The notes beneath the pieces were generated by a model that saw nothing but the letters and a program-made list of their open reading frames with translations, was not told the origin of the DNA and made no database searches. DNA of 64,000 nucleotides. Source: Bacteroidota bacterium. GTDB taxonomy: Bacteria > Bacteroidota > Bacteroidia > UKL13-3. A program made the position numbers and the translations under genes. Positions 1,550 through 59,961 of this stretch are shown piece after piece (positions within the stretch are counted from its first letter, which is position 1; every line of letters starts with the position of its first letter). The stretch spans positions 1 through 64,000 of the forward strand of contig JAZKBU010000001.1 in the NCBI GenBank assembly GCA_040388375.1, written 5' to 3'.

Positions 1550-2647
1550 ATGAAATTAATTGACCCTGAATCAAAGCAAGAATACAATTGTAACTCACCT
1601 ATATGGATATCTCCGGCAAATAACCTGTTATCCATTGAGTTTGATGCAGCGTTTAATTTGGATGCTATTAAAAAAAAACAGTCCAATTTATGGCGATATG
1701 AAGATGCTATTGCTATTGACCAAAAGCTGGGAATAGTGAGTATGCAGGAAGGATTCACCCCTCTTGAGCCTATTACCATTAATAAAAAAAAAGTATATAT
1801 TAAACATGAACAATTGTTTAGTACAGGCAGCTATAAGGACCGAGGAGCAACAACGCTTATCAGCAAAGTGAAACAATTGGGTATAGACATGGTAATACAG
1901 GATAGCAGCGGCAATGCAGGCTGTGCTATTGCTGCTTATGCGGCTAAAGCCGGAATAAACTGCCATATTTATTTGCCTGAAAATACATCGCCCAATAAAA
2001 TTGCACAAATGCAGGCTTATGGGGCCACAATAGTGAAAGTACAAGGAAACAGGGAAGATACAGCCAATGCAACATTAAAAGCAGCAGAAAAAACTTACTA
2101 TGCAAGCCATTCTTACAACCCCTGGTTTTTTGAGGGGACTAAAACATTTGCATTTGAAATATGTGAACAACAAGGATGGAAAGCGCCTGATGCCATTGTG
2201 CTTCCTGCGGGAAATGGAACACTTGTTATTGGCTGTTTTATTGGCTTTAATCAACTGGCTAAAGCAGGTATTATTACTAAAATTCCTAAAATTATTGCTA
2301 TACAAACGCAAGCTTGCAATCCGTTAAGTATTATGTTTCATAAAAATTTACCTGAACTGCCTTCTGTTGAAAGTACGGCTACTTATGCCGAAGGTATTGC
2401 CATTGCTAAACCCATAAGAGCAAAACAAATTGTATCATCGGTTAAGGAAACCAAGGGTACATTTATTTCTGTTAACGAAGAAGAAATAAAAACAGCGTGG
2501 ACAGAGATGGCTCGTATAGGTAACTATATTGAACCAACCAGTGCAGCCACCATTGCAGGTTTAAAACAATATATAAAAAATAATGATGATGAATTGGTCG
2601 TATCATTATTTAGCGGACACGGCCTAAAATCAAAACCTCTTTTCTAA
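1550..2647 (+). CDS. Threonine synthase-like PLP-dependent enzyme
   Basis: A 365-residue fold-type II pyridoxal-phosphate enzyme. The PLP lysine is in GSYKDRGA, the phosphate/substrate loop is SSGNAG, a glycine-rich cofactor loop is PAGNGT, and EGFTPL matches the threonine synthase N-terminal motif. Threonine synthase converts O-phosphohomoserine to threonine. The protein is shorter than classical ThrC and fits the short ThrC-like branch; another PLP lyase or cysteate synthase-like activity cannot be excluded. The frame extends upstream to a TTG at 1526, but the ATG at 1550 (MKLIDPESKQEY) is preferred. A TAATTTTG -7-like box lies at 1505-1512. No other threonine pathway gene is adjacent. Confidence 0.8.
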   Translation: MKLIDPESKQEYNCNSPIWISPANNLLSIEFDAAFNLDAIKKKQSNLWRYEDAIAIDQKLGIVSMQEGFTPLEPITINKKKVYIKHEQLFSTGSYKDRGATTLISKVKQLGIDMVIQDSSGNAGCAIAAYAAKAGINCHIYLPENTSPNKIAQMQAYGATIVKVQGNREDTANATLKAAEKTYYASHSYNPWFFEGTKTFAFEICEQQGWKAPDAIVLPAGNGTLVIGCFIGFNQLAKAGIITKIPKIIAIQTQACNPLSIMFHKNLPELPSVESTATYAEGIAIAKPIRAKQIVSSVKETKGTFISVNEEEIKTAWTEMARIGNYIEPTSAATIAGLKQYIKNNDDELVVSLFSGHGLKSKPLF

Positions 2648-2796
2648 ACACGGGAAATGGAAATATGAGTTATTGTTATGCTAAAAAAATAGGTTGTCAA
2701 CAAGTTATAAATTGCTTCTTATATAACTAATTCAACTGGCAATAAAATTGTGTTATCAATTATTTACAAAAAAACGTATCATGCAACTGTAATAAT

Positions 2797-4461
2797 ATGT
2801 TAAATAAACTAATCAATATATTAAATAATTTAAGCACGGGAACAAGAACGGCTATAAGTTATTTTACCATTATATTCTTTACGCTATTGGCGAGTATTAC
2901 TGCAATTCTACTACTTCAATACAGTAAAGGTATTGACGAAAAACTATCAAAAAGTTTCAACCCGGCCATTAATGCGGCTGAGGATATACACTCACTGATA
3001 GATGAGAGCAACAGGCTTTGTTACTCACTCATTACGCAGCCTAATAAAGACATCAGACTTAAACTGGAAAAAATTATTTCGAAGCAGTACAAATCGAAAA
3101 AAATATTTTTATTGGAATTATTTCAAGAGCCGGAACTGCAAAAATCGAAAGTACTTTTTAATACGGCTGATGCCAGTTTTATCAAAATAATTGAAAAGCA
3201 AAAACAACTCCTTATAAAAACTAAAGACAGTATTGATATTGAAGGCGCCAAAGCCCTGCAATTAGAAATAAAAGACGATATAGCCGCTTTGCAACCGGTA
3301 ATAGGAGAAGTAGAATTAAAGGTAATTGATGCCAGTAGAGAAATTCAATTAGAAAAATACGAAAGCTACAGAACCTTGCGGTTTGCATTATTAGCAATGA
3401 TGGTGGTAGTAGTTATGGTGGCAGCTATTTCACTGTTAATTACCAACGAAACCATTGTAAATCCTGTACGTCAGGTAAGCGAGGTACTTAATGTAATGGG
3501 CAAAGGCGATATTGTTAAGTTTGAAGTTACTACCCGAAGAAAAGATGAAATTGGAGACATGATTGAATCAGCTCAAAATTTATCTTTAGGCATGAAAAAC
3601 AAAGCCGATGTAGCCTATGCAATTGGTAAAGGCAATTATGAAATAGAAGTCCCCTTACAAGGCAAAAACGACAAGCTTGGAAAAGCATTGTTAGAAATGC
3701 GTGACAACCTTTTGCAAAGTAAAAAAACAGAAGAGAAAAACTTAAGAGAACTTGAGTTGTATACTAAAAACTTAGAGAAAAAAAATAAAGAACTTGACCA
3801 GTTTGCATACGTAACCTCACACGATTTAAAAAGCCCGCTAAGAGGTATAAACAATCTGGCTGAATGGATTGAGGAAGACATGGGAGACACTATGAGTATA
3901 GAAAGTAAAAAATACTTTTTAATGCTTAGAGGCCGTGTTCACAGAATGGAATCGCTTATTAACTCACTTTTAAAATATAGTCGTGCAGGAAGATCAAGCA
4001 ATGAGTTAGAGCTGGTAAGCAGTAAACAAATATTACTCGAAGTACTGAAAAGAATCGCCCCTTCGCCACGTTTTGCTATTTACCACGATGATGCGCTACC
4101 CACACTATACGCCAATTACAAAGAAATAGAGGATGTTTTTTTTGAATTGCTAAGTAATGCAGTAAGGTATAATTTTAGTGCAGAACCTGTAATAAACATA
4201 ACTTATAAAATAGAAAAACCTTTTTATGTTTTTTGTGTGGCTGATAATGGTTCCGGCATTTCACCTGAATACCACAAAAAAATATTTACCATATTCCAAA
4301 CACTGGAAACACGCGACAAAATAGAAAGTATGGGAGCAGGACTGGCTATTGTAAGTAAAATAGTAGAGGAAAATGGTGGTTATGTATGGGTAGAATCTGA
4401 TGAAGGATTAGGTGCTAAATTCTACTTTAAATGGCCTATTCCAAAAGAAAGTGTAAGCTAA
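2797..4461 (+). CDS. Membrane sensor histidine kinase with HAMP domain
   Basis: A 554-residue sensor kinase. In order: TM helix about 18-42, a helical sensor region about 45-190, a second TM about 192-215 (Met/Val-rich), HAMP about 215-270, a charged coiled coil about 300-335, HisKA with phospho-His in VTSHDLKSPLRG about 345, then HATPase_c with N box ELLSNAVRY, DNGSGI and a G2 box GAGLAIV. It should autophosphorylate in response to a periplasmic or membrane signal. No receiver gene is adjacent, so it is an orphan here. Its stop codon directly abuts the stop of the convergent purK gene. Confidence 0.88.
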   Translation: MLNKLINILNNLSTGTRTAISYFTIIFFTLLASITAILLLQYSKGIDEKLSKSFNPAINAAEDIHSLIDESNRLCYSLITQPNKDIRLKLEKIISKQYKSKKIFLLELFQEPELQKSKVLFNTADASFIKIIEKQKQLLIKTKDSIDIEGAKALQLEIKDDIAALQPVIGEVELKVIDASREIQLEKYESYRTLRFALLAMMVVVVMVAAISLLITNETIVNPVRQVSEVLNVMGKGDIVKFEVTTRRKDEIGDMIESAQNLSLGMKNKADVAYAIGKGNYEIEVPLQGKNDKLGKALLEMRDNLLQSKKTEEKNLRELELYTKNLEKKNKELDQFAYVTSHDLKSPLRGINNLAEWIEEDMGDTMSIESKKYFLMLRGRVHRMESLINSLLKYSRAGRSSNELELVSSKQILLEVLKRIAPSPRFAIYHDDALPTLYANYKEIEDVFFELLSNAVRYNFSAEPVINITYKIEKPFYVFCVADNGSGISPEYHKKIFTIFQTLETRDKIESMGAGLAIVSKIVEENGGYVWVESDEGLGAKFYFKWPIPKESVS

Positions 4462-33853: not shown

Positions 33854-34711
33854 TTGAAACTGACAGACTACATACAAAATCTATTTGGGACTGAGCGACA
33901 CGTTTTAGAAAACGACAGGACTAAACTCATTGACAAAATGAGAAAGCTCTACAAGTTTTTAGAGACCGACTTTGGTTACACTTATACGCTTGACAAAGAA
34001 ACAGACAAGTATCCTGGCGGACCGAAGTATTACATCAACAAATACACTAACCTTAAAGCACAGCGACAAATAGAAATTACGTTGCATCGCAACAGCACAC
34101 CACTTTACTTTTACCTAAAGCGACTTCATGATAGCATTGAACCTTCATACTCGGACAACGACAACTGTTATGCTTTTTATGAGATTGACATCTATAATGG
34201 CATTGACAATCACGACAGACATCACCCGTATTTACCGCCTGATTACGAGCTTACTAATGTTAAAGTCGGACTTGAGATTTTAAAATCAATCCCAAACATT
34301 CTAAAGGGAACTGACTGGTTTGACAGAAACAGACTGGACAAAATATTTCTTGAAACCAAAGGTTATAAATCGGGACATTCCGACAATTCAACTTTTGCTT
34401 TAATTAAAAAGACATTTTCATTTTTAGAGACTGACCTTGACTTTAAAATCGTTTACGATTACGACAAGTTAAGACCCTTTGAACAAGACCTTGGCGGACA
34501 TTTGGTGTATAGTAACGACAAAATCACAATTGGTTTTTCCGTTGACTTTCGTGACCAAGACTTTTCAGTATACTTGCTTGACACTAAAGACTACGACATA
34601 GATAACTTTTGGCAAATCGGAGAACGAGTTGGTAACGGTGGGACAACAGAAAAAGAATTTATACATGCAAAGAGACAACTTGACGCACGGATTAAGAACT
34701 ACTACCGCTAA
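33854..34711 (+). CDS. Hypothetical cytosolic protein, cassette-like
   Basis: 285 residues from a TTG at 33854; an in-frame stop lies just upstream and the next in-frame ATG is 33938, so either a TTG start or a shorter protein must be true. No family recognised and no signal peptide. A sequence pattern of KLYKFLETDFGYTYTLDKET early and KKTFSFLETDLDFKIVYDYD later suggests two similar halves. Its codon use is rich in GAC and differs from the core genes, a sign of transfer. The stop TAA is inside CGCTAAC, the first arm of an attC-like structure. Confidence 0.65.
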   Translation: MKLTDYIQNLFGTERHVLENDRTKLIDKMRKLYKFLETDFGYTYTLDKETDKYPGGPKYYINKYTNLKAQRQIEITLHRNSTPLYFYLKRLHDSIEPSYSDNDNCYAFYEIDIYNGIDNHDRHHPYLPPDYELTNVKVGLEILKSIPNILKGTDWFDRNRLDKIFLETKGYKSGHSDNSTFALIKKTFSFLETDLDFKIVYDYDKLRPFEQDLGGHLVYSNDKITIGFSVDFRDQDFSVYLLDTKDYDIDNFWQIGERVGNGGTTEKEFIHAKRQLDARIKNYYR

Positions 34712-34839
34712 CAAGGTGTTTGCGATAGCGGGGGTTCCGTGCTTCGCAGACACATTTGTGCAAGGTGGAAGTTCAGTTCTCCGAATGAACTTTAGTGCTA
34801 AAAAACCCCGCCATCGCAAACCCCCGAAACGTTAACCGC
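34704..34839 (+). repeat. attC-like imperfect palindrome at the end of a gene cassette
   Basis: CCGCTAAC at the gene stop and GTTAACCG at the far end are near-complementary outer arms. Inside them GTTTGCGATAGCGGGG (34718-34733) pairs with CCCCGCCATCGCAAAC (34806-34821) with one mismatch. A 7-bp inner hairpin (AAGTTCA/TGAACTT) lies in the centre. The total of about 135 bp and the stop codon within the first arm are features of integron attC sites, although the GTTAACC end departs from the GTTRRRY consensus. No integron integrase gene is in the window. Confidence 0.5.
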
Positions 34840-34852
34840 AATGTAAAAACAC

Positions 34853-46289: not shown

Positions 46290-47954
46290 TTATAAGTTGG
46301 TAGTGTCAAAATACTGTCTAGCAAAGTCAGAAATACGTTTGTGTCTTTCTATAATTTCAGTTTCAGTCCATTGAGTTTTTTCTCTAATTTCGGTGTAACT
46401 TGATAGAGCAGTGTCTTGAAATAGTTCACTTTTCTTGTCAAATGATTTGTTACCAAACCTACTATTTTGAGTCTGTGTCAATAAAGCCAAGTTACCAGCA
46501 AGTTGTAAAAAGTTCTTTTTAAACTCTTCGCTATATTTTTCGTCTGTCGGGTTTTGCGGTTTGATATGTTCAATAGTGTAACTATTGTAACGGTCTTTAT
46601 CCAATAATGCACCCGAACCCTTGTCAGTTCTTATACTATTTTCATATTGCCATAAAACAAACTTGATTGTATTGCGGTTGTAATGCCATTTTTCGTTGTC
46701 AAAATAGTTTGTGATTACATTTTTAAACCTATCTCCGTCATTCCAATACCACTTAAAGCCTGTTTTTGTGGCCTTTTTAATATCTTGATACAAATTGTTA
46801 ATGTTGTAATTAACATCGGGATTGAAATATTGCTTTGAATAATCGGGTAAATAGTCTGTGCGATAATCACCTAGTTTGAGTTTGAAGCAAAGGACTTCCA
46901 ATAATTTCAAAATCTTTTTGAACGTGTCGCCTTTTACTTCTCCTTTGTAGAAAAGTGTCAGCAAAACCAGTTTCCAATTCGCTTCGTTGCCAACAAAGAA
47001 AAGGTTTGTAATGTCCGATTGATTTTTATTACTCACAATACTTTTAGCACTATGAGTTAAAACAACAAAGTTTTCAAAAAACAACTTTATCCATTTAGTT
47101 TTATTTTCTTCTTTATTTAATTTTTTCTTTATCGCTTCAATGTTACCGTCAATGTTGAAAAACAAATTACAGTAATTGTCTAAAAGTTCATTTTCTGAGA
47201 AGTAGCCCTCAACTGCTTCAATATATCGGTATGATATGGAAATATTGCTTTGAATTTCTGCAATGTCATTATTTGCTTGATTGTTGTTTGTACTTTGAAT
47301 ATAAATTTGGTGCATTAAATATGCCTTGATAATTTCAAATCTTGAAAGTTCTTTACCACGATTGTTTTGATATTCAAAAACCTGTGTCGCCTCAACTTTG
47401 TTAGTAATATAAAATGTGCTGATTACTGCATTTTCTAAAGTCTGCTGAATTAAGTTTAAGTTCTCTGTCGCTAGTTTACTCAATTCTGTTTCAAAGAAGT
47501 TAAAGGCTTTAATTATTCTTTTTTGTGAAATTGTTTCGGTGTCGTCAATGGCTGATACCAAATGTTTTTGAGTAACTTTTTTGAAAATTACTTGGTCTTC
47601 ATCAATAGTTTTGAAAACGTCTGTCAAATAGATTTCTCTGATGCTGTCAATATTTTCGCCTTTTATAATTTTGATTTTGGCTATTGCAGAAAGAAACAAA
47701 ATTATTGTTGTAAGTCTTTGTTGTCCATCAATTATAAAAAGAGTGTTTCCGTCCTTTTCAAAAAGGAATTGTCCCAAATAATATTTCTTTCCTTTTTGTT
47801 CTAAAAGGTCGTCAAGGAATTGAGAGCATTGTTTGTCACCCCAACTGTAAGCACGCTGATAGGCTGGTATTCTAACGTAGTCTGAACTTTTGAAAAGTTG
47901 TTGAATATTTTCAGCAACTTTATTTTCAAGTGCCGTTTCTGTTTGATTATTCAT
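46290..47954 (-). CDS. DUF262/DUF1524 protein (GmrSD-like nuclease family)
   Basis: 554 residues. The N-terminal half has the DUF262 motifs RIPAYQRAYSWG and LFIIDGQQRLTTIILFLSAI; the C-terminal half has YTIEHIKPQNPTDEKY and LAGNLALLTQTQNSRFGNKS, the His-Asn-type nuclease motif of DUF1524. Fused DUF262-DUF1524 proteins include type IV restriction enzymes of the GmrSD kind that cut modified phage DNA. A restriction role is therefore plausible but unproven. No methylase or other defence gene is adjacent, so it may act alone. Confidence 0.85.
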   Translation of the reverse strand: MNNQTETALENKVAENIQQLFKSSDYVRIPAYQRAYSWGDKQCSQFLDDLLEQKGKKYYLGQFLFEKDGNTLFIIDGQQRLTTIILFLSAIAKIKIIKGENIDSIREIYLTDVFKTIDEDQVIFKKVTQKHLVSAIDDTETISQKRIIKAFNFFETELSKLATENLNLIQQTLENAVISTFYITNKVEATQVFEYQNNRGKELSRFEIIKAYLMHQIYIQSTNNNQANNDIAEIQSNISISYRYIEAVEGYFSENELLDNYCNLFFNIDGNIEAIKKKLNKEENKTKWIKLFFENFVVLTHSAKSIVSNKNQSDITNLFFVGNEANWKLVLLTLFYKGEVKGDTFKKILKLLEVLCFKLKLGDYRTDYLPDYSKQYFNPDVNYNINNLYQDIKKATKTGFKWYWNDGDRFKNVITNYFDNEKWHYNRNTIKFVLWQYENSIRTDKGSGALLDKDRYNSYTIEHIKPQNPTDEKYSEEFKKNFLQLAGNLALLTQTQNSRFGNKSFDKKSELFQDTALSSYTEIREKTQWTETEIIERHKRISDFARQYFDTTNL

Positions 47955-48153: not shown

Positions 48154-49380
48154 TTATCTGTCAAAAATAGATATACAAATCTTTTGGGGTGCTTGCTCTA
48201 ATAAATCTTTCCTTTTGTGATGGAGTTGTTTTAAGCTATACCCAAGTGGGTAAACTTCTGCATTACTTGACATTTTAACATACTTTTTTTCACTCCATGC
48301 ATAAGTACCCTCTATTAAATACTCGCAGTAATTCTCTTTATTAAATATAAATGTATTATCCCCTAGCTTCGTATTATAATACTCAATAAAATTGCTTAAA
48401 TAAGTCCTATCAGTAAATATAAATTGCCCTGTTACACTATCTCGTTTCCATAAATCAAGTAATCGACATTCAACATGCTCACTTTTCCCATCATTATAAG
48501 AAATTATAAATGTGTTTTCATCAACTGCAATAGCTTTTTCTAATAAGCCCGAATTAAAAAAATATTCAGAGCCATACCTCATAAAGCTAGACATTCCTTT
48601 TTTATATTCTTTTCTTACCAGCGTAGAATCAAACTTGTTTTTAAACGGTTTAAAATCCTTTACGGTTTGAAGTAAATTAAGCCCTGTATCATATATATCA
48701 AAACTATAATTATAGTTTTGTGCTACTATAATGTTTTTCTCTAATAAAGTAATTGGTTCTATTGAAATATGAGTTAACTCTATATTGGTTATGTGTGGGT
48801 GTATAGCTTTAATTATTTTATGGGTTTGTAAATCCATTAAAGCAATTTCGGTTTTTACAACTTCATGGAATGGATTTGTTGAATTGTAGGCTTTTGTTAA
48901 TATTAAACGCTCACCGTATAGTTTTAAGTTTTCGTATTTTATGTTAATGTCTAAATCATGTTTAGTTAGTTTGTTATTAGTGTAGTTATAATGAAACAAA
49001 TTATCTTCAATTAATACTACTAAATTATCTTGGTTAACATCATAATCATTTATTATTAACCTATCATCTAGCATAATATCATTTAGGTTTGGTATAATAA
49101 TATATTGCTTAGTAATACTTTTAGTATTCACGTTTATTTTAGTTAAATAAAACGTGTCTAAATGCAAGTTTCTATCATAATAATTGATATAAAAAGTATC
49201 GTTCTCAAGCCTTGTTTTTATTTTACTACTTCGTGCATCTGAACCCAAATCATTTAAAAACAAAATACTATCTAATTTAGCCATTTCTGTAAAATGTCTA
49301 ATATTAGACTGCCCAATTGATAGTTTAGATACTACTATAAAAAAAACAAAGCAAAATATATAGCTTTTAAAGTTTCGCAT
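48154..49380 (-). CDS. Secreted protein of unknown function
   Basis: 408 residues; no family recognised. A signal peptide (IFCFVFFIVVSKLSIGQ) then a polar, beta-rich protein with repeated short strands such as LVVLIEDNLFHYNYTNNKLT and KIIKAIHPHITNIELTHISI, which could be a beta-propeller. No T9SS tail and no lipobox. Its start lies at the left edge of the tandem array, so the promoter must be inside or next to the array. AT-rich (few GC-rich codons). Confidence 0.68.
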   Translation of the reverse strand: MRNFKSYIFCFVFFIVVSKLSIGQSNIRHFTEMAKLDSILFLNDLGSDARSSKIKTRLENDTFYINYYDRNLHLDTFYLTKINVNTKSITKQYIIIPNLNDIMLDDRLIINDYDVNQDNLVVLIEDNLFHYNYTNNKLTKHDLDINIKYENLKLYGERLILTKAYNSTNPFHEVVKTEIALMDLQTHKIIKAIHPHITNIELTHISIEPITLLEKNIIVAQNYNYSFDIYDTGLNLLQTVKDFKPFKNKFDSTLVRKEYKKGMSSFMRYGSEYFFNSGLLEKAIAVDENTFIISYNDGKSEHVECRLLDLWKRDSVTGQFIFTDRTYLSNFIEYYNTKLGDNTFIFNKENYCEYLIEGTYAWSEKKYVKMSSNAEVYPLGYSLKQLHHKRKDLLEQAPQKICISIFDR

Positions 49381-49417: not shown

Positions 49418-52290
49418 GGTTTTTAAAGTGCAGAGAACAGCAAAAAAGCGCAAAATTGTTCAAAAAATGGCAATTATAATCCAACACATCCGACTTTGGC
49501 GGTGCTGTGCATTAGAAAACATATAGTAACTGAAATAACCACTATAACCGATATTGGCTAGGGTGGTTAAACGGTTTTTTTAAGTGCAAAAAGCAGCAGA
49601 AAATGGCAAAAAAAAGCAAATTCATACCACTAAATCATACTCCAACACATTCAACCTTGGCGGTGTTGTGCATTAAAAATATATAGTAATAAGAGTTACC
49701 ACCATATCCATTATTGGCTAGGGTGGTTAAATTGGTAATTAACCGATTAGTTACCGATGGTTAACCAGTAGTAACCGCTAAATAATACCCCACCACATCC
49801 AACCTTGGCGATGCTGTGCATTAGAAAACATATAGTAATAGAAATTACCACCACATCCGACTTTGGCTAGGGTGGTTAAATGCTAATTAACCGATTAATT
49901 ACCGATAGTTAACCAGTAGTAACCGCTAAATAATACTCTAACACATCCGACTTGGGCGGTGCTGTGAATGAAAAGCATATAGCAACTGGAATAGCCACCA
50001 TATCCAATATTGGCTAGGGCGGTTACATGATATTTAACCGATAGTTAACCAGTAGTAACCGCCAATTGTAACCGCTAAATAACACCCCAACACATCCAAC
50101 CTTGGCGATGCTGTGCATTAAAAACATATAGTAACTAGAATAACCACCACATCCGATATTGGATAGGGTGGTTAAATGGATTTTCAAGTGCAAAAAACAG
50201 CAGAAAACGGCAAAATTTGGCAAAAAACGGTAAATTCATACCACTAAATTATACCCCCACCACATCCGACTTTGGCGATGCTGTGCATTAGAAAACATAT
50301 AGTAACTGAAATTACCACCATATCCAATATTAGCAGGGTGGTTACATTATAATTACCGATTAGTAACCGATAGTTAACCAGTAGTAACCGCCAATTGTAA
50401 CCGCTAAGTAATACTCCAACACATCCGACTTTGGCGGTGCTGTGCATTTGAAAACATATAGTAATTGGAATAACCGCCCCTATCCGATATTGGCTAGGGT
50501 GGTTACACGGTTATTAACCGATTAATTACCGATAGTTAACCAGTTGTAACCGCCACTTGTAACCGCTAAATAATAGTCCAACATATCCGACTTTGGCGGT
50601 GCTGTGCATTAAAAACATATAGTAATTGAAATAACCACTATAGCCGATATTGGCTAGGGTGGTTACACGGTTATTAACCGATTAGTTACCGATAGTTAAC
50701 CACTAGTAACCGCCAATTTAACCGCTAAGTAATAGCCCAACACATCCAACCTTGGCAGTGCTGGTCTTAAAGACATATAGTAATAAGAGTAACCACCATA
50801 TCCGATATTGGCTAGGGCGGTTACATGGCTATTAACCGATTAGTTACCGATAGTTAACCAGTAAATAACCGCCAATTGTAACCGCTAAATTATATCCCAC
50901 CACATCCGACTTTGGCGGTGCTGTGCATTGAAATATATAGTAAATGGAATAACCACTATAGCCGATATTGGCTAGGGTAGTTAAACGGATTTTCAAGTGC
51001 AAAAAACAGCAGAAAACGGCAAAATTTGGCAAAAAATGGCAAATTCATACCGCTAAATTATACCCTAACACATCCGACTTTGGCGGTGCTGGGCATTAGA
51101 AAACATATAGTAACTGAAATAACCACTATAACCGATATTGGCTAGGGTGGTTACACGGTTATTAACCGATTAATTACTGATGGTTAACCAGTAGTAACCG
51201 CCAATTGTAACCGCAAAGTAATAGCCCACCACATCCAACCTTGGCGGTGCTGTGCATTTGAAAACATATAGTAATTGGAATAACCGCCCCTATCCGATAT
51301 TGGCTAGGGTGGTTACATGTTTGTTAACCGATTAGTTACCGATGGTTAACCAGTAGTAACCGCCAATTGTAACCGCAAAAAATATTCCAACACATCCGAC
51401 TTTGGCGGTGGTGTGCATTAGAAAACATATAGTAAGTGAAATAACCACCATATCCGATATTGGCTAGGGCGGTTAAACCGTTTTTCAAAGTGCAAAAAAT
51501 AGCAAATTCAGACCGCTAAATCATGCTCTAGCACATACAACCTTGGCGGTATTGTGCATTAGAAAATATATAGTAACTGGAATTACCACCATATCCGATA
51601 TTGGATAGGGTGGTAACATTATTATTAACCGATAAGTTACCGATAGTTAACCAGTAACCGCCAGTAGTAACCGCTAAATAATACCCCACCACATCCAACA
51701 TTGGCGATGCTATGCATTAGAAAACATATAGCAACTGAAATTACCACTACATCCGATATTGACTAGGGTGGTTACATGATAATTTACCAATTAGTAACCG
51801 ATAGTTAACCAGTAATAATCGCCAATTGTTACCGTTAAATAATAGTCTAACACATCCGACTTTGGCGGTGCTGGCCTTAAAAACATATAGTAATAAGAGT
51901 AACCACCATATCCGATGTTGGTTAGGGCGGTTACATTGCTATTAGCCGATAAGTTACCGATAGTTAACCAGTAGTAACCGCCAATTGTAACCGCTAAATA
52001 ATATCCCACCACATCCAACTTTGGCGGTGCTGTGAATTAGAAAACATATAGTAATAAGAATAACCATTATATCCGATATTGGCTAGGGCGGTTACATGGC
52101 TATTAACCGATTAGTTAACGATAGTTAACCAGTAATAACCGCCAATTGTAACCACTAAATCATACTCCACCACATCCAACTTTGGCGGTGCTGTGCATTA
52201 AAAATATATAGTAATTGAAATGACCATATCTGATATTGGCTAGGGTGGTTAAACCGTTTTTCAAAGTACAAAAAACAGCAAAAAAATAAA
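49418..52290. repeat. Tandem array of 18 units of about 160 bp with two tail types
   Basis: Unit starts (at CCAACACATCC or a variant): 49481, 49642, 49790, 49938, 50087, 50257, 50416, 50578, 50737, 50897, 51065, 51226, 51387, 51528, 51686, 51847, 52006, 52167. Spacing is 141-170 bp, mostly 159-161. Each unit has a head of about 95 bp holding a hairpin (TAACCACC with GGTGGTTA) and then either tail A, with ACCG-type motifs every 10-13 bp, or tail B, with A-tracts about every 10 bp. Tail B ends units 1, 5, 10, 13 and 18; tail A ends the rest. A tail B also opens the array (49418). No conserved reading frame exists, so it is non-coding. Confidence 0.93.
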
Positions 52291-52358: not shown

Positions 52359-53072
52359 TTATACAGCCTCTATCATTGCATGGGTTAAATAAATACTTAC
52401 CTTATTGTTTACTTCTTCTAATTCTAAGTTATAGTATATAGCGAGTGCTTGCAATCTGCTTAATACTTCTTTATCCGATACTTTTAATACTACTTCGTTT
52501 GGACTTATAGTAGCATAATCAATATGGTGGTTACTTATAATATCAATTATTTTGGTAATAACGAGTAGTGTTTGTTGGCTAATAATTTGGTCTAAGTTTA
52601 CTACTGCTGGTGCTATAACATGCTTATTAGTTTCATTAATTAGTTTTACATAATTATTTACCACTTCATTAAACCTTAAATCTGTTCTGTTTTCTGCATA
52701 AAATTGTAAGCTAAAGCTTTTCATTTCAAGGTTAATGGTTTCATAAGTATATATTAAATCCATTTCCCACTTTTCATACTCTTCTAAGTTAACTAACTTA
52801 TGCGAGTCAACCATACTCATTAGGTCAACTATATACGATAAATGCTTTTCCGTATAAGTTCTTCGGGTTATGGCTTTCTTTTTATTTTCCAGCTCTTGTT
52901 GCTTTTGTTCGGTTATAAATAGCAGAAGCAAATCGTTATATTTTTTATTTTGTTTTATTTTATAGCTGTTTGTTTTAAATGATAAAATCATCATAAATGC
53001 AAAAAGCAATAAACATATGGCGGTGCCACTTATAAAAACTAAACTAACTGCGTTGCTGATGCTTAAATCCAT
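52359..53072 (-). CDS. Membrane-anchored coiled-coil protein of unknown function
   Basis: 237 residues. One N-terminal TM helix (about 10-32), then a highly charged, helical cytosolic part with a Lys/Glu/Gln-rich coiled coil around 50-70 (FITEQKQQELENKKKAITRR). The overall shape recalls small histidine-kinase-like proteins with a single TM, but no His box or ATP-binding motif is visible. It overlaps the upstream gene by 29 nt, so translational coupling is likely. It is the last gene of the operon and ends just before the tandem array. Confidence 0.68.
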   Translation of the reverse strand: MDLSISNAVSLVFISGTAICLLLFAFMMILSFKTNSYKIKQNKKYNDLLLLFITEQKQQELENKKKAITRRTYTEKHLSYIVDLMSMVDSHKLVNLEEYEKWEMDLIYTYETINLEMKSFSLQFYAENRTDLRFNEVVNNYVKLINETNKHVIAPAVVNLDQIISQQTLLVITKIIDIISNHHIDYATISPNEVVLKVSDKEVLSRLQALAIYYNLELEEVNNKVSIYLTHAMIEAV

Positions 53073-56298: not shown

Positions 56299-59200
56299 AT
56301 GAAACTAAAATTATACACCCTATTGTTTATGCTCTATTATTTGTGTAATTGTATAAACACACAAGCCCAAGTAAACCGTAGAGAAGAGCGTAAAAATGTA
56401 CCTTACCGAGCTAACTACCAACGCATGGTAAGCAGTGCTTGCGCCAACCATAGTTTAGAAATAAAAGAAGGTTATATATGGGCATGGGGTAATAATAACT
56501 ATGGGCAGTTAGGCGATGGTACTAACCTGCAACGCAAAAAGCCAGTACGCATTAGTACTTATAACAATTGGGTATTAATAAGCACAGGCGGCAACCATAG
56601 TGCGGCCATACAAGCCAACGGTACTTTATGGACATGGGGTTATAACAACTACGGGCAGTTAGGTACTAATACTTTTTTAAATAAAAACATACCCACCCAA
56701 ATAGGTGCTGATAGCAATTGGATAAGTGTAGCTTGTGGCAACGATTTTACCTTAGCCATAAAAGCCGATGGTACTTTATGGGCATGGGGTAATAATGACA
56801 ATGGGCAGTTAGGCAATAATACTTTAGTCAGTAAAGACGTACCTACCCAAATAGGAGTAGCTACCAATTGGGTAGCCATAGGCGCAGGTTATGCACATAG
56901 TATAGCCGTACAAGCCAATGGTACTTTATGGAGTTGGGGTAGTAATAATAAAGGGCAATTAGGTATGGGCAATACTAATACTTATACTAGCCCTACCCAA
57001 GTAGGAAGCGATAGTATTTGGGTAAGCATAGCCGCAGGGTATGAACACAACATGGCTATAAAAGCCAATGGTACTTTATGGACTTGGGGAGCTAACGATT
57101 CAGCCCAATTAGGCGATGGCACATTTCAAAACAAAACCATACCCACCCTTATAGGTACTCAAAGCAATTGGGTAAGTATAGCTGCGGGTAAATACCAAAG
57201 TTTAGCCATACAAGCCAACGGTACTTTATGGGCTTGTAATAGCACCTATACTATACCCACACAAATAAGCACTGCCAAAAATTGGGTAAATATATTTGCA
57301 GGCCATACCCACAGTATAGCCCTGCAAGCCAACGGTACTCTATGGGCTTGGGGTACTAATACCTTTGGGCAAATAGGCAACGGTACAAACCTTACCGCCA
57401 CAAACCCAACAGTAATAAGCCAAGCACCAAATGGCTGGCTTATGGTTAGTGTTGCATCTAATAGCAATAGTGGTATAGGTACTAGTATGGGCATAAAAAC
57501 GGATGGAACTTTGTGGGCTTGGGGCAGTAATTTGAATGGACAGTTTGGCAATGGTACTTTAGCCGCCAGTAATTACCCTATACAAATAGGTACGGCTAGC
57601 AATTGGGTATGTGTAGAAATAACTCAATCATATACCATAGCCTTACAAGCCAATGGTACATTGTGGAGTTGGGGTAGAAACAGCTCTTATTTGGGTATAG
57701 GGGTTTCTTTTGATAACGGTTTTCAAACTACACCCGTGCGTATAGGTACAGATAGTAATTGGGCAAGCTTTTATGCATATGGGAGTGTATTTGGTTTAAA
57801 GGCTGATGGCACTTTATGGTTTTGGGGTTATACGGGTAATACTCCTTATTATATAGATACTTCCGTTACCGAAATTACTACCCCCGTGCAACACAATGCA
57901 GCCAGAGATTGGGTAAGTGCCAGCCATATGGGTTCTTATTGTTTATTAAAAGCTGATGGCTCTTTATGGGCAGCAGGAGATAATACTTTTGGACAATTAG
58001 GCAATGGTAACTATACCAATGGTACAGGTACTACACTTTCAAGAGTTGGTGATGTTAACCATAAAAACTGGATAAAAATAACTTCTTATTATTATAACTA
58101 TAATTGCGCTGCGGTACAAGCCAATGGCACACTTTGGACATGGGGCTTTAATTTATATGGGGGGTTGGGTGATGGCACCAACATTAATAGAAATAGTCCT
58201 GTACAAATAGGTGCAAATAAGCAGTGGTTATTTATTCGAACTGGAAATGCCATATCGGGTGGTAGAGCCATAGCTGCCAATGGTACTTTATGGGCTTGGG
58301 GTGCTAACGATTATGGAACGTACGGCAATGGCTATATGGGTACTTGGTTAGTACCCACCCAAGTGAATAACGATAACAATTGGATAAACATTGCTAATTT
58401 AGCTACCCATGCCATAGGTTTAAAAGCACACCGCAATGGTTTTTGTGCGGTAGGGGTAAACGATTATGGACAATTGGGTGATACCACTAACAATAGTACT
58501 ACCGTTTTTAATTGCGATTTAGGGGTAGCACCTTGCCAAATACCCCCTAAGCCCGTAGCAGATAGTGTAAAAATATGTTTAGGCAGTAGTGCTATTTTAA
58601 ATGCAAGTGGCTTAGGTGTATTAAGTTGGTATAGCGATTCCATAGATGGCAATTTTTTAGGAGTAGGGGCTAATTTTACGCCACCGCTATTACAAAATAG
58701 TACCACCTATTATGTACAAGATAGTACTTGTTTTGTAAGCAATAGGCAACCTGTACCCCTTGTAGTTTTAGCCAAACCCAAAGGGGGTTTTACCATAAAC
58801 AATAATGTACAATGTATAAAAGGCAATCAATTTGTATTTACCGATACCTCAAACATAGGTAAAAGCCATATAAAACGTATATGGAGTTTAGGCAATACCG
58901 ATACCGCTTCACTGGCAACGGTAAACAAAACCTATACCCTTACCAATGCTTACGCCATTCTGTTAGTAGTTTACGATACTAATTCGTGTACAGATACCAT
59001 TACTAAAACCATTCATGTAATAGCCAGTCCTCAATCAGGCTTTATCGTTAATCAACTCAATCAATGCGTAAATAACAACAACTTTATATTTACCGACACC
59101 TCAAGTATTAGTATAGGTACACTAAACCGCTCGTGGCAATTTGGCGATGGGGGAACAAGCATAAACACCGATTCAATAAGCCATAAAAAATACAGTTTGG

Positions 59201-59961
59201 CTAATACCTATTGGGTTAAATTAATTGTAGCTAGCGAAAACGCTTGTAAAGATTCAACACTTAAACGGGTTACGATATACGAAAAACCAACAGTTAAAGC
59301 CCTTGCTTCCGATACCCTTATTTGTGCAGGTAATACCATTGTTTTAAATGGAAACGGAGCTAAAAATTATACATGGACAGAGGGTGTTTTAAATGGTATA
59401 GCCTTTATACCCACACAAAGCAAAAACTACCAAGTAATAGGTATAGACAGTAACAATTGTGCTGATACCAATACCATACATATAACCCTTAAACCCATGC
59501 CCAATATTACTACTACTTGGAGTAAACCAACTATTACCGCTAGCCAAGTAAATGCCAGTTACCAATGGTTAAACTGCAATAGTAATTTTGCGCCCATTGG
59601 CGGAGCCAATGCACAAATATTTACCCCTGCTAATAATGGTAGCTATGCCGTAAGTATTAACTTAAATAATTGTATTGATACCTCCGCTTGTGTAGCTATA
59701 AATGGTATTGGTATAAACGAAATATACAATAACCCATTAAGCATATACCCCAACCCCAATAATGGTATATTTACCATTAACACAACGCAACAAGGCGAGT
59801 ATAAAATAAGCAATGAATTAGGGCAAACCATACAAAGTTTTAAAACCTTGTATACCGATAATAGCACCCTAATTGATATAAGTAACCAACCCAACGGCAT
59901 TTATTTTTTACAGTTTACCAATACGTTTAGTACTTATACCTATAAACTGGTAAAACAGTGA
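56299..59961 (+). CDS. Secreted RCC1-repeat beta-propeller protein with PKD and T9SS domains
   Basis: 1220 residues. After a signal peptide (YYLCNCINTQAQ) come 14 RCC1-type repeats, each with a core like GTLWAWGNNDNGQLGNNT; repeats 6, 10 and 14 are degenerate. Fourteen would fill two seven-bladed propellers. They are followed by an Ig-like domain (KICLGSSAILNASGLG), two PKD-like domains (FTDTSNIGKSHIKRIWSLGN and FTDTSSISIGTLNRSWQFGD), another Ig-like part and a T9SS type A sorting domain (SIYPNPNNGIFTINTT, YTYKLVKQ). Probably a large cell-surface binding protein processed by PorU. Confidence 0.9.
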   Translation: MKLKLYTLLFMLYYLCNCINTQAQVNRREERKNVPYRANYQRMVSSACANHSLEIKEGYIWAWGNNNYGQLGDGTNLQRKKPVRISTYNNWVLISTGGNHSAAIQANGTLWTWGYNNYGQLGTNTFLNKNIPTQIGADSNWISVACGNDFTLAIKADGTLWAWGNNDNGQLGNNTLVSKDVPTQIGVATNWVAIGAGYAHSIAVQANGTLWSWGSNNKGQLGMGNTNTYTSPTQVGSDSIWVSIAAGYEHNMAIKANGTLWTWGANDSAQLGDGTFQNKTIPTLIGTQSNWVSIAAGKYQSLAIQANGTLWACNSTYTIPTQISTAKNWVNIFAGHTHSIALQANGTLWAWGTNTFGQIGNGTNLTATNPTVISQAPNGWLMVSVASNSNSGIGTSMGIKTDGTLWAWGSNLNGQFGNGTLAASNYPIQIGTASNWVCVEITQSYTIALQANGTLWSWGRNSSYLGIGVSFDNGFQTTPVRIGTDSNWASFYAYGSVFGLKADGTLWFWGYTGNTPYYIDTSVTEITTPVQHNAARDWVSASHMGSYCLLKADGSLWAAGDNTFGQLGNGNYTNGTGTTLSRVGDVNHKNWIKITSYYYNYNCAAVQANGTLWTWGFNLYGGLGDGTNINRNSPVQIGANKQWLFIRTGNAISGGRAIAANGTLWAWGANDYGTYGNGYMGTWLVPTQVNNDNNWINIANLATHAIGLKAHRNGFCAVGVNDYGQLGDTTNNSTTVFNCDLGVAPCQIPPKPVADSVKICLGSSAILNASGLGVLSWYSDSIDGNFLGVGANFTPPLLQNSTTYYVQDSTCFVSNRQPVPLVVLAKPKGGFTINNNVQCIKGNQFVFTDTSNIGKSHIKRIWSLGNTDTASLATVNKTYTLTNAYAILLVVYDTNSCTDTITKTIHVIASPQSGFIVNQLNQCVNNNNFIFTDTSSISIGTLNRSWQFGDGGTSINTDSISHKKYSLANTYWVKLIVASENACKDSTLKRVTIYEKPTVKALASDTLICAGNTIVLNGNGAKNYTWTEGVLNGIAFIPTQSKNYQVIGIDSNNCADTNTIHITLKPMPNITTTWSKPTITASQVNASYQWLNCNSNFAPIGGANAQIFTPANNGSYAVSINLNNCIDTSACVAINGIGINEIYNNPLSIYPNPNNGIFTINTTQQGEYKISNELGQTIQSFKTLYTDNSTLIDISNQPNGIYFLQFTNTFSTYTYKLVKQ

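Follow-up and report, generated by a model that had tools for sequence, protein, structure and literature searches.

The 64-kb stretch of DNA analyzed here (the window), from a Bacteroidota genome, holds a long tandem array at 49418–52290, which raises the question of what kind of element it is and what maintains it. A preliminary description made from the sequence proposed a non-coding array of 18 units, each with a common head and one of two tails, and offered as candidate roles a protein-loading platform, a set of small RNAs, or a recombination-maintained locus. We found no description of such arrays in the literature and, to our knowledge, bacteria seldom carry large non-coding satellites.

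Anatomy of the array and its copies in the genome

A nhmmer search of the window with one head as query recovered 18 heads of ~90 bp, from 49479–49569 to 52166–52251 (E 3.1e-25 to 5.5e-13), and TRF reported periods of 160 and 161 for the array (scores 1015 and 2050). The array of 18 units, each a head with one of two tails, is confirmed. The tails between heads were of two types and measured 39–82 bp; their letters were assigned automatically and, for the window array, checked by eye. The tail order in the window, an opening B followed by B, AAAB, AAAAB, AAB, and AAAAB, exactly reproduced the one given before, with tail B at both array edges and truncated at each. The features are as follows:

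48154–49380, minus strand: flanking gene for a 408-aa protein, directed away from the array; the protein start resembles a signal peptide (by eye) and no family was matched
49418–52290, plus strand: complete array with 18 heads and 19 tails, flanked on each side by a hypothetical gene on the minus strand
49418–49478, plus strand: opening tail B, truncated on the left; it lies 37 bp upstream of where ORF 48154–49380 (minus strand) starts
49479–49569, plus strand: head 1, two imperfect palindromes with cores of CCRAYWTTGG type
49570–49640, plus strand: tail B following head 1
49641–50174, plus strand: heads 2–5 (49641–49729, 49790–49878, 49937–50025, 50087–50174) and three A tails
50175–50256, plus strand: tail B following head 5, full length, phased A-tracts
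50257–50983, plus strand: heads 6–10 (50257–50344, 50415–50505, 50577–50665, 50736–50823, 50896–50983) and four A tails
50984–51064, plus strand: tail B following head 10
51065–51475, plus strand: heads 11–13 (51065–51153, 51226–51315, 51386–51475) and two A tails
51476–51526, plus strand: tail B following head 13, 30 bp shorter (three iterons)
51527–52251, plus strand: heads 14–18 (51527–51614, 51686–51774, 51846–51933, 52005–52094, 52166–52251) and four A tails
52252–52290, plus strand: closing tail B, right-truncated
52359–53072, minus strand: flanking gene for a 237-aa protein without a Pfam match, with its end towards the array

The head has two imperfect palindromes of ~20–25 bp, CACATCCRACYTTGGCGGTG on the left and ACCACCATATCCGATATTGGCTAGGGTGGT on the right. 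Tail A is made of about five ~11-bp iterons of the GTTAACCGATA type, and tail B of about five ~10-bp phased A-tracts of the GGCAAAAAAC type. The last ~18 bases (ACCGCTAAATnATAC...) are common to A and B tails, so that the common part of the unit amounts to ~110 bp; the shared head described earlier is real, but not its length of 95 bp. Besides small indels, tail lengths differ in jumps of 10, 11, 13, or 30 bp, which places unit spacing near 141–150, 160, and 170 bp. Measured in both arrays, head-to-head spacing ran from 141 to 170 bp in classes of 141, 145, 147–150, 157–162, and 169–170, that is, in ~10-bp steps. The earlier figure of mostly 159–161 bp covers the ~160-bp class of this range.

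The whole genome contained 33 strong head matches. A second array of 13 heads (array 2) was located at C1:173662–175695, on the same contig as the window array, and contig C9 carried a remnant of two heads, one good and one strongly diverged. Both arrays are on the dnaA contig, 170 and 294 kb from dnaA and 124 kb apart. Behind a degenerate opening B, the tails of array 2 read A, B, A, B, then seven A, then B, B, which shows that B is not a regular separator; two successive heads were repeated exactly. The proposal of a two-letter tail code with B as separator is not supported as a code, since array 2 departs from the pattern and heads that are nearly identical are flanked by different tails.

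Among 40 genomes searched, the product of 48154–49380 was present only in the source genome, where it has a 44% paralogue at C1:91693–92832. Both flanking proteins tested were private to the source genome among these 40, so no empty site could be found. Other genes in the surroundings include a type IV restriction gene of the GmrSD type close to the array (window 46290–47954, minus strand), an AbiH-like gene near the C9 remnant (L010:4252–5235), and a gene for a 1220-aa RCC1-repeat protein with a Por secretion tail (window 56299–59961, plus strand).

Coding potential, RNA, and distribution

Neither strand of the array gave a coding signal. The longest stop-free runs, 54 codons on the top strand and 88 on the bottom, were below the 81 and 100 expected from Markov-shuffled sequence, in agreement with the initial view that the array is non-coding and conserves no frame. 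Heads on the bottom strand had a slight folding advantage over shuffled sequence (mean z −1.5, best −4.7), as an array of small non-coding RNAs with one RNA per unit might do. Against such RNAs, the top-strand z was −0.5, no Rfam 15 family matched within the array (one sub-threshold match, E 0.41, lay outside it), promoter-like sites were at chance level (17 vs. 17.4), terminator-like sites numbered 0 vs. 3.2, and no Bacteroidota-type promoter was matched in the array. With weak fold scores and no promoter excess, the suggested set of small RNAs is disfavoured, and we regard it as improbable.

The search of the head against other genomes, proposed in the preliminary description, was run on several genome sets, which overlap partly and of which searches over 40 genomes applied stricter filters. 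No comparable unit was detected in 57 relatives (DNA or profile searches), in 63 other genomes of the order (head model), or in 394 other genomes of the class (window head, and likewise the C9 remnant), and phages and plasmids gave no comparable match. Two pattern scans of 84,980 GTDB species genomes and of viral contigs, in which records from the source genome or near ones may be omitted, returned nothing beyond single chance-like matches: four singles in unrelated phyla and three in viral contigs. Seven weak head-model matches (E 0.001–0.01) occurred in six of the 63 other order genomes; inspection of the sequence at two of these seven, both in genome G080, revealed no repeat unit. A head-model match in one of the 394 class genomes (G376, E 3.6e-5) lay inside an ORF and was discarded. 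Tail-B-like scraps were seen as well, two among the 57 relatives, one of them in G022. The array is thus a species-private satellite, without counterpart in the other genomes searched. As it has no detectable homologue in relatives, there is no cross-species conservation to back a function.

Comparison with known repeat systems

CRISPR was rejected because there are only two recurring spacer types, and a PADLOC scan of ten ORFs had no CRISPR or Cas model among its matches; the earlier statement that the array is neither CRISPR nor rRNA stands.

A miniature transposable element of the MITE or REP/RAYT type, amplified in tandem, would fit copies at unrelated sites (two arrays plus a remnant), as well as imperfect palindromes in a genome with four Y1 transposase (Y1_Tnp) genes. 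However, neither array had inverted ends of at least 9 bp or a clear target duplication, no flanks were shared, and there were three loci only. The Y1_Tnp genes lie on contigs C16, C7, C5, and C6, away from the arrays, with no match on C1 or C9 and none beside an array, on which grounds REP/RAYT was rejected. We consider an origin of this kind hardly likely. BrickBuilt of Porphyromonas gingivalis is a minisatellite inside a MITE, species-specific, intergenic, and non-coding, with a 23-nt unit without spacers, 19 loci, small inverted-repeat ends, and promoter activity (PMC4596501). The present array likewise belongs to a Bacteroidota genome and is a non-coding tandem repeat, intergenic and specific to its species, but differs in its 160-bp composite units, two tails, three loci, and the lack of any inverted ends found.

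Array 2 has its end ~86 bp upstream of the start of an integron-type integrase (tyrosine recombinase), and the head is reminiscent of attC in that a spacer separates two sites with inverted repeats. The arrays could accordingly be recombination sites of this neighbouring integrase, related to attC or attI and without genes between them. The integrase passes the NF040815 model (NCBI XerA/integron integrase) with 226 bits vs. a cut-off of 220, and scores 211 bits against the integron integrase proper (cut-off 265). Its family is present in 55 of 97 genomes including the source (E ≤ 1e-60). The source-genome integrases, L009:4503–5540 and L036:6324–7361 (both minus strand), belong to this integron-type family with homologues in relatives. 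In the 28 loci compared, the integrase 3′ end is followed by a palindromic attI-like site ending in AGTTA and then by cassettes; four of the 28 contigs end exactly at AGTT or AGTTA, perhaps because the cassettes differ between cells.

Several results speak against the arrays being such sites. An attC profile made from 12 sites (11 from relatives, one from the source genome) gave three strong matches elsewhere, at L036:3326–3455, at window 34730–34842, and to one training member, and it matched no unit of either array at E ≤ 10. The head profile had no attI or other match in the integrase loci of relatives, and the array was found in 0 of 35 other integrase loci. Array 2 lies on the 5′ side of the integrase, whereas the attI-like site of the family is on the 3′ side, and the 64-kb window around the other array contains no integron-type integrase. 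No gene cassettes separate the sites; the gaps of 39–82 bp hold no long open frame. An attC, attI, or CALIN identity was rejected on the missing profile match, the missing cassettes, and the wrong integrase side. The array is not an attC array; the integrase-site explanation is largely refuted and very improbable, and the adjacency of array 2 to the integrase may be due to chance.

The VCR of Vibrio are the attC repeats of integron arrays, and CALINs (PMC9668308) are a further example of attC arrays. Such arrays resemble ours in having species-typical ~100-bp repeats with two palindromic half-sites, as well as in one array lying beside an integrase, and differ from ours, which lack gene cassettes and an attC-profile match and lie on the wrong integrase side.

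Two further observations were made at these loci. The attC-like site at window 34730–34842 (E 3.6e-10) lies directly after ORF 33854–34711 and is an isolated integron-type cassette end, and the attC sites L036:1876–1987 and 3326–3455 adjoin the second integrase and bound ORF 2005–3372, which encodes an RCC1-repeat protein. Non-coding tandem repeats were present within 1 kb upstream in five of 35 other integrase loci vs. 13 of 269 other genes (Fisher P = 0.043), a comparison in which the 1-kb limit was picked after seeing the data and the G009 repeat was counted as coding by the ORF filter; at 500 bp the counts were 3 of 35 and 12 of 269 (P = 0.24). This tandem-repeat excess on the integrase 5′ side is a weak lead. 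The closest case, in G029, is an 87-bp unit repeated five times (L068:10626–11061), at a distance of 748 bp on the upstream side of a related integrase; in G009, a 7-bp repeat of ~31 copies starts 8 bp upstream of the integrase start (L039:1089–1300).

Mosaic units, helical geometry, and interpretation

Linkage was analyzed in 29 heads (two exact copies were dropped) at 21 sites with two common variants. The r2 between variable sites fell from 0.17 at 1–3 bp (15 pairs) to 0.03 at 51–100 bp (27 pairs), and 0 of 5000 position permutations were as extreme as this decay. All four gametes were present in 91% of the 74 site pairs 26–50 bp apart and already in 53% of the 15 pairs 1–3 bp apart, the latter implying that part of the mosaic signal comes from recurrent mutation or misalignment. 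No correlation was found between left-half and right-half head distances (r = 0.13, P = 0.09), between heads and which tail type follows them (r = −0.13, P = 0.96), between A tails and their own heads (r = 0.07, P = 0.29), or between adjacent heads (r = −0.08, P = 0.76). The two arrays were undifferentiated (P = 0.24), and one head-B-head block was 97% identical between them.

The units are therefore mosaics in which association decays within tens of bases and tails assort freely with heads. This is the pattern that frequent short exchanges would give, and recurrent mutation contributes too. Free assortment, together with undifferentiated arrays, means that the tail code is not an inherited order. 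Linkage decay, free assortment, and undifferentiated arrays give good support to the idea of a recombination-maintained locus. The copying and reshuffling probably proceeded by homologous recombination, through unequal exchange and short gene-conversion tracts, also between the arrays.

Both tails have a 10.5–11 bp period in GC content. At period 11, GC power was 6.8 for A (20 tails) and 7.1 for B (nine tails) vs. at most 2.1 in shuffles; in the head, the period is 8, with none at 10–11. In 20 A and seven B tails (truncated end tails and two duplicates omitted), the phase from the head edge, out of 10.5 bp, was 4.09 for A and 4.10 for B, or 3.62 and 3.92 with the shared ends trimmed. At period 10.5, the difference between the trimmed phases was 0.3 bp when counted from the left edge and 0.7 bp when counted from the right. 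This agreement is suggestive, being one comparison with a chance of roughly 1 in 10 to 1 in 17. The two cores of each head are ~57 bp apart, ~5.4 turns, and so are not on the same helix face; among the candidate sites, the tails are phased and the head cores are not. Variation along the unit was uneven, with a variance/mean of 1.86 in 20 A units and a weak effect in seven B units (P = 0.019), by a tree-based test whose assumption is violated by recombining units.

We favour, with a probability of about 0.42, a recombination-maintained satellite made of composite duplex-DNA sites, in which the linkers are helically phased and which is probably bound by protein. Each unit is a palindromic head plus one of two sequence-unrelated linkers. 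Less surely, the array would act as double-stranded DNA with the palindromes as putative protein sites, and the linkers may be interchangeable, helically phased spacers that hold neighbouring sites on a defined helix face. The palindromes of the heads and the phasing of the linkers are compatible with duplex DNA bound by proteins, and the protein-loading platform suggested earlier gains circumstantial support from the phased tails, at the level of sequence. Against this reading, short tandem repeats of 10–11 bp give helical periodicity by themselves, and slippage can make them without selection. In a more specific form, which we think unlikely, the array would serve as a nucleoprotein scaffold on the chromosome, where TTAACC iterons could stand in for phased A-tracts and vice versa because only helical phase matters, so that recombination would shuffle linkers while binding-site geometry is kept. 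The plasmid centromere parC of R1 has 11-bp iterons. Sites of this centromere/iteron type, like our array, contain ~11-bp direct repeats that are helically phased and come about five to a group; unlike them, the array is chromosomal, has 160-bp composite units with palindromic heads, and has no par genes identified nearby.

A functionless satellite, selfish or neutral, explains nearly as much and is nearly as likely. Slippage and unequal exchange would have multiplied a short sequence in accessory regions that tolerate it, and the sequence would have spread to a second site, with periodicity and palindromes as by-products. Its confinement to a single genome among those searched in the order and class, its position among accessory genes without relatives in 39 other genomes, its mosaic, freely assorting units, and tails that are themselves short tandem repeats all agree with this explanation. 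Less readily accounted for are the uneven variation along the unit, the helical phase shared by two unrelated tails, and the occurrence of just two discrete tail types in 33 tails.

If the array is protein-bound, it would offer a natural test of whether helical phase, not sequence, is preserved by selection in spacer DNA. If it is functionless, it would be a clean case of satellite evolution in a compact genome, with mosaic units and exchange between loci 124 kb apart.
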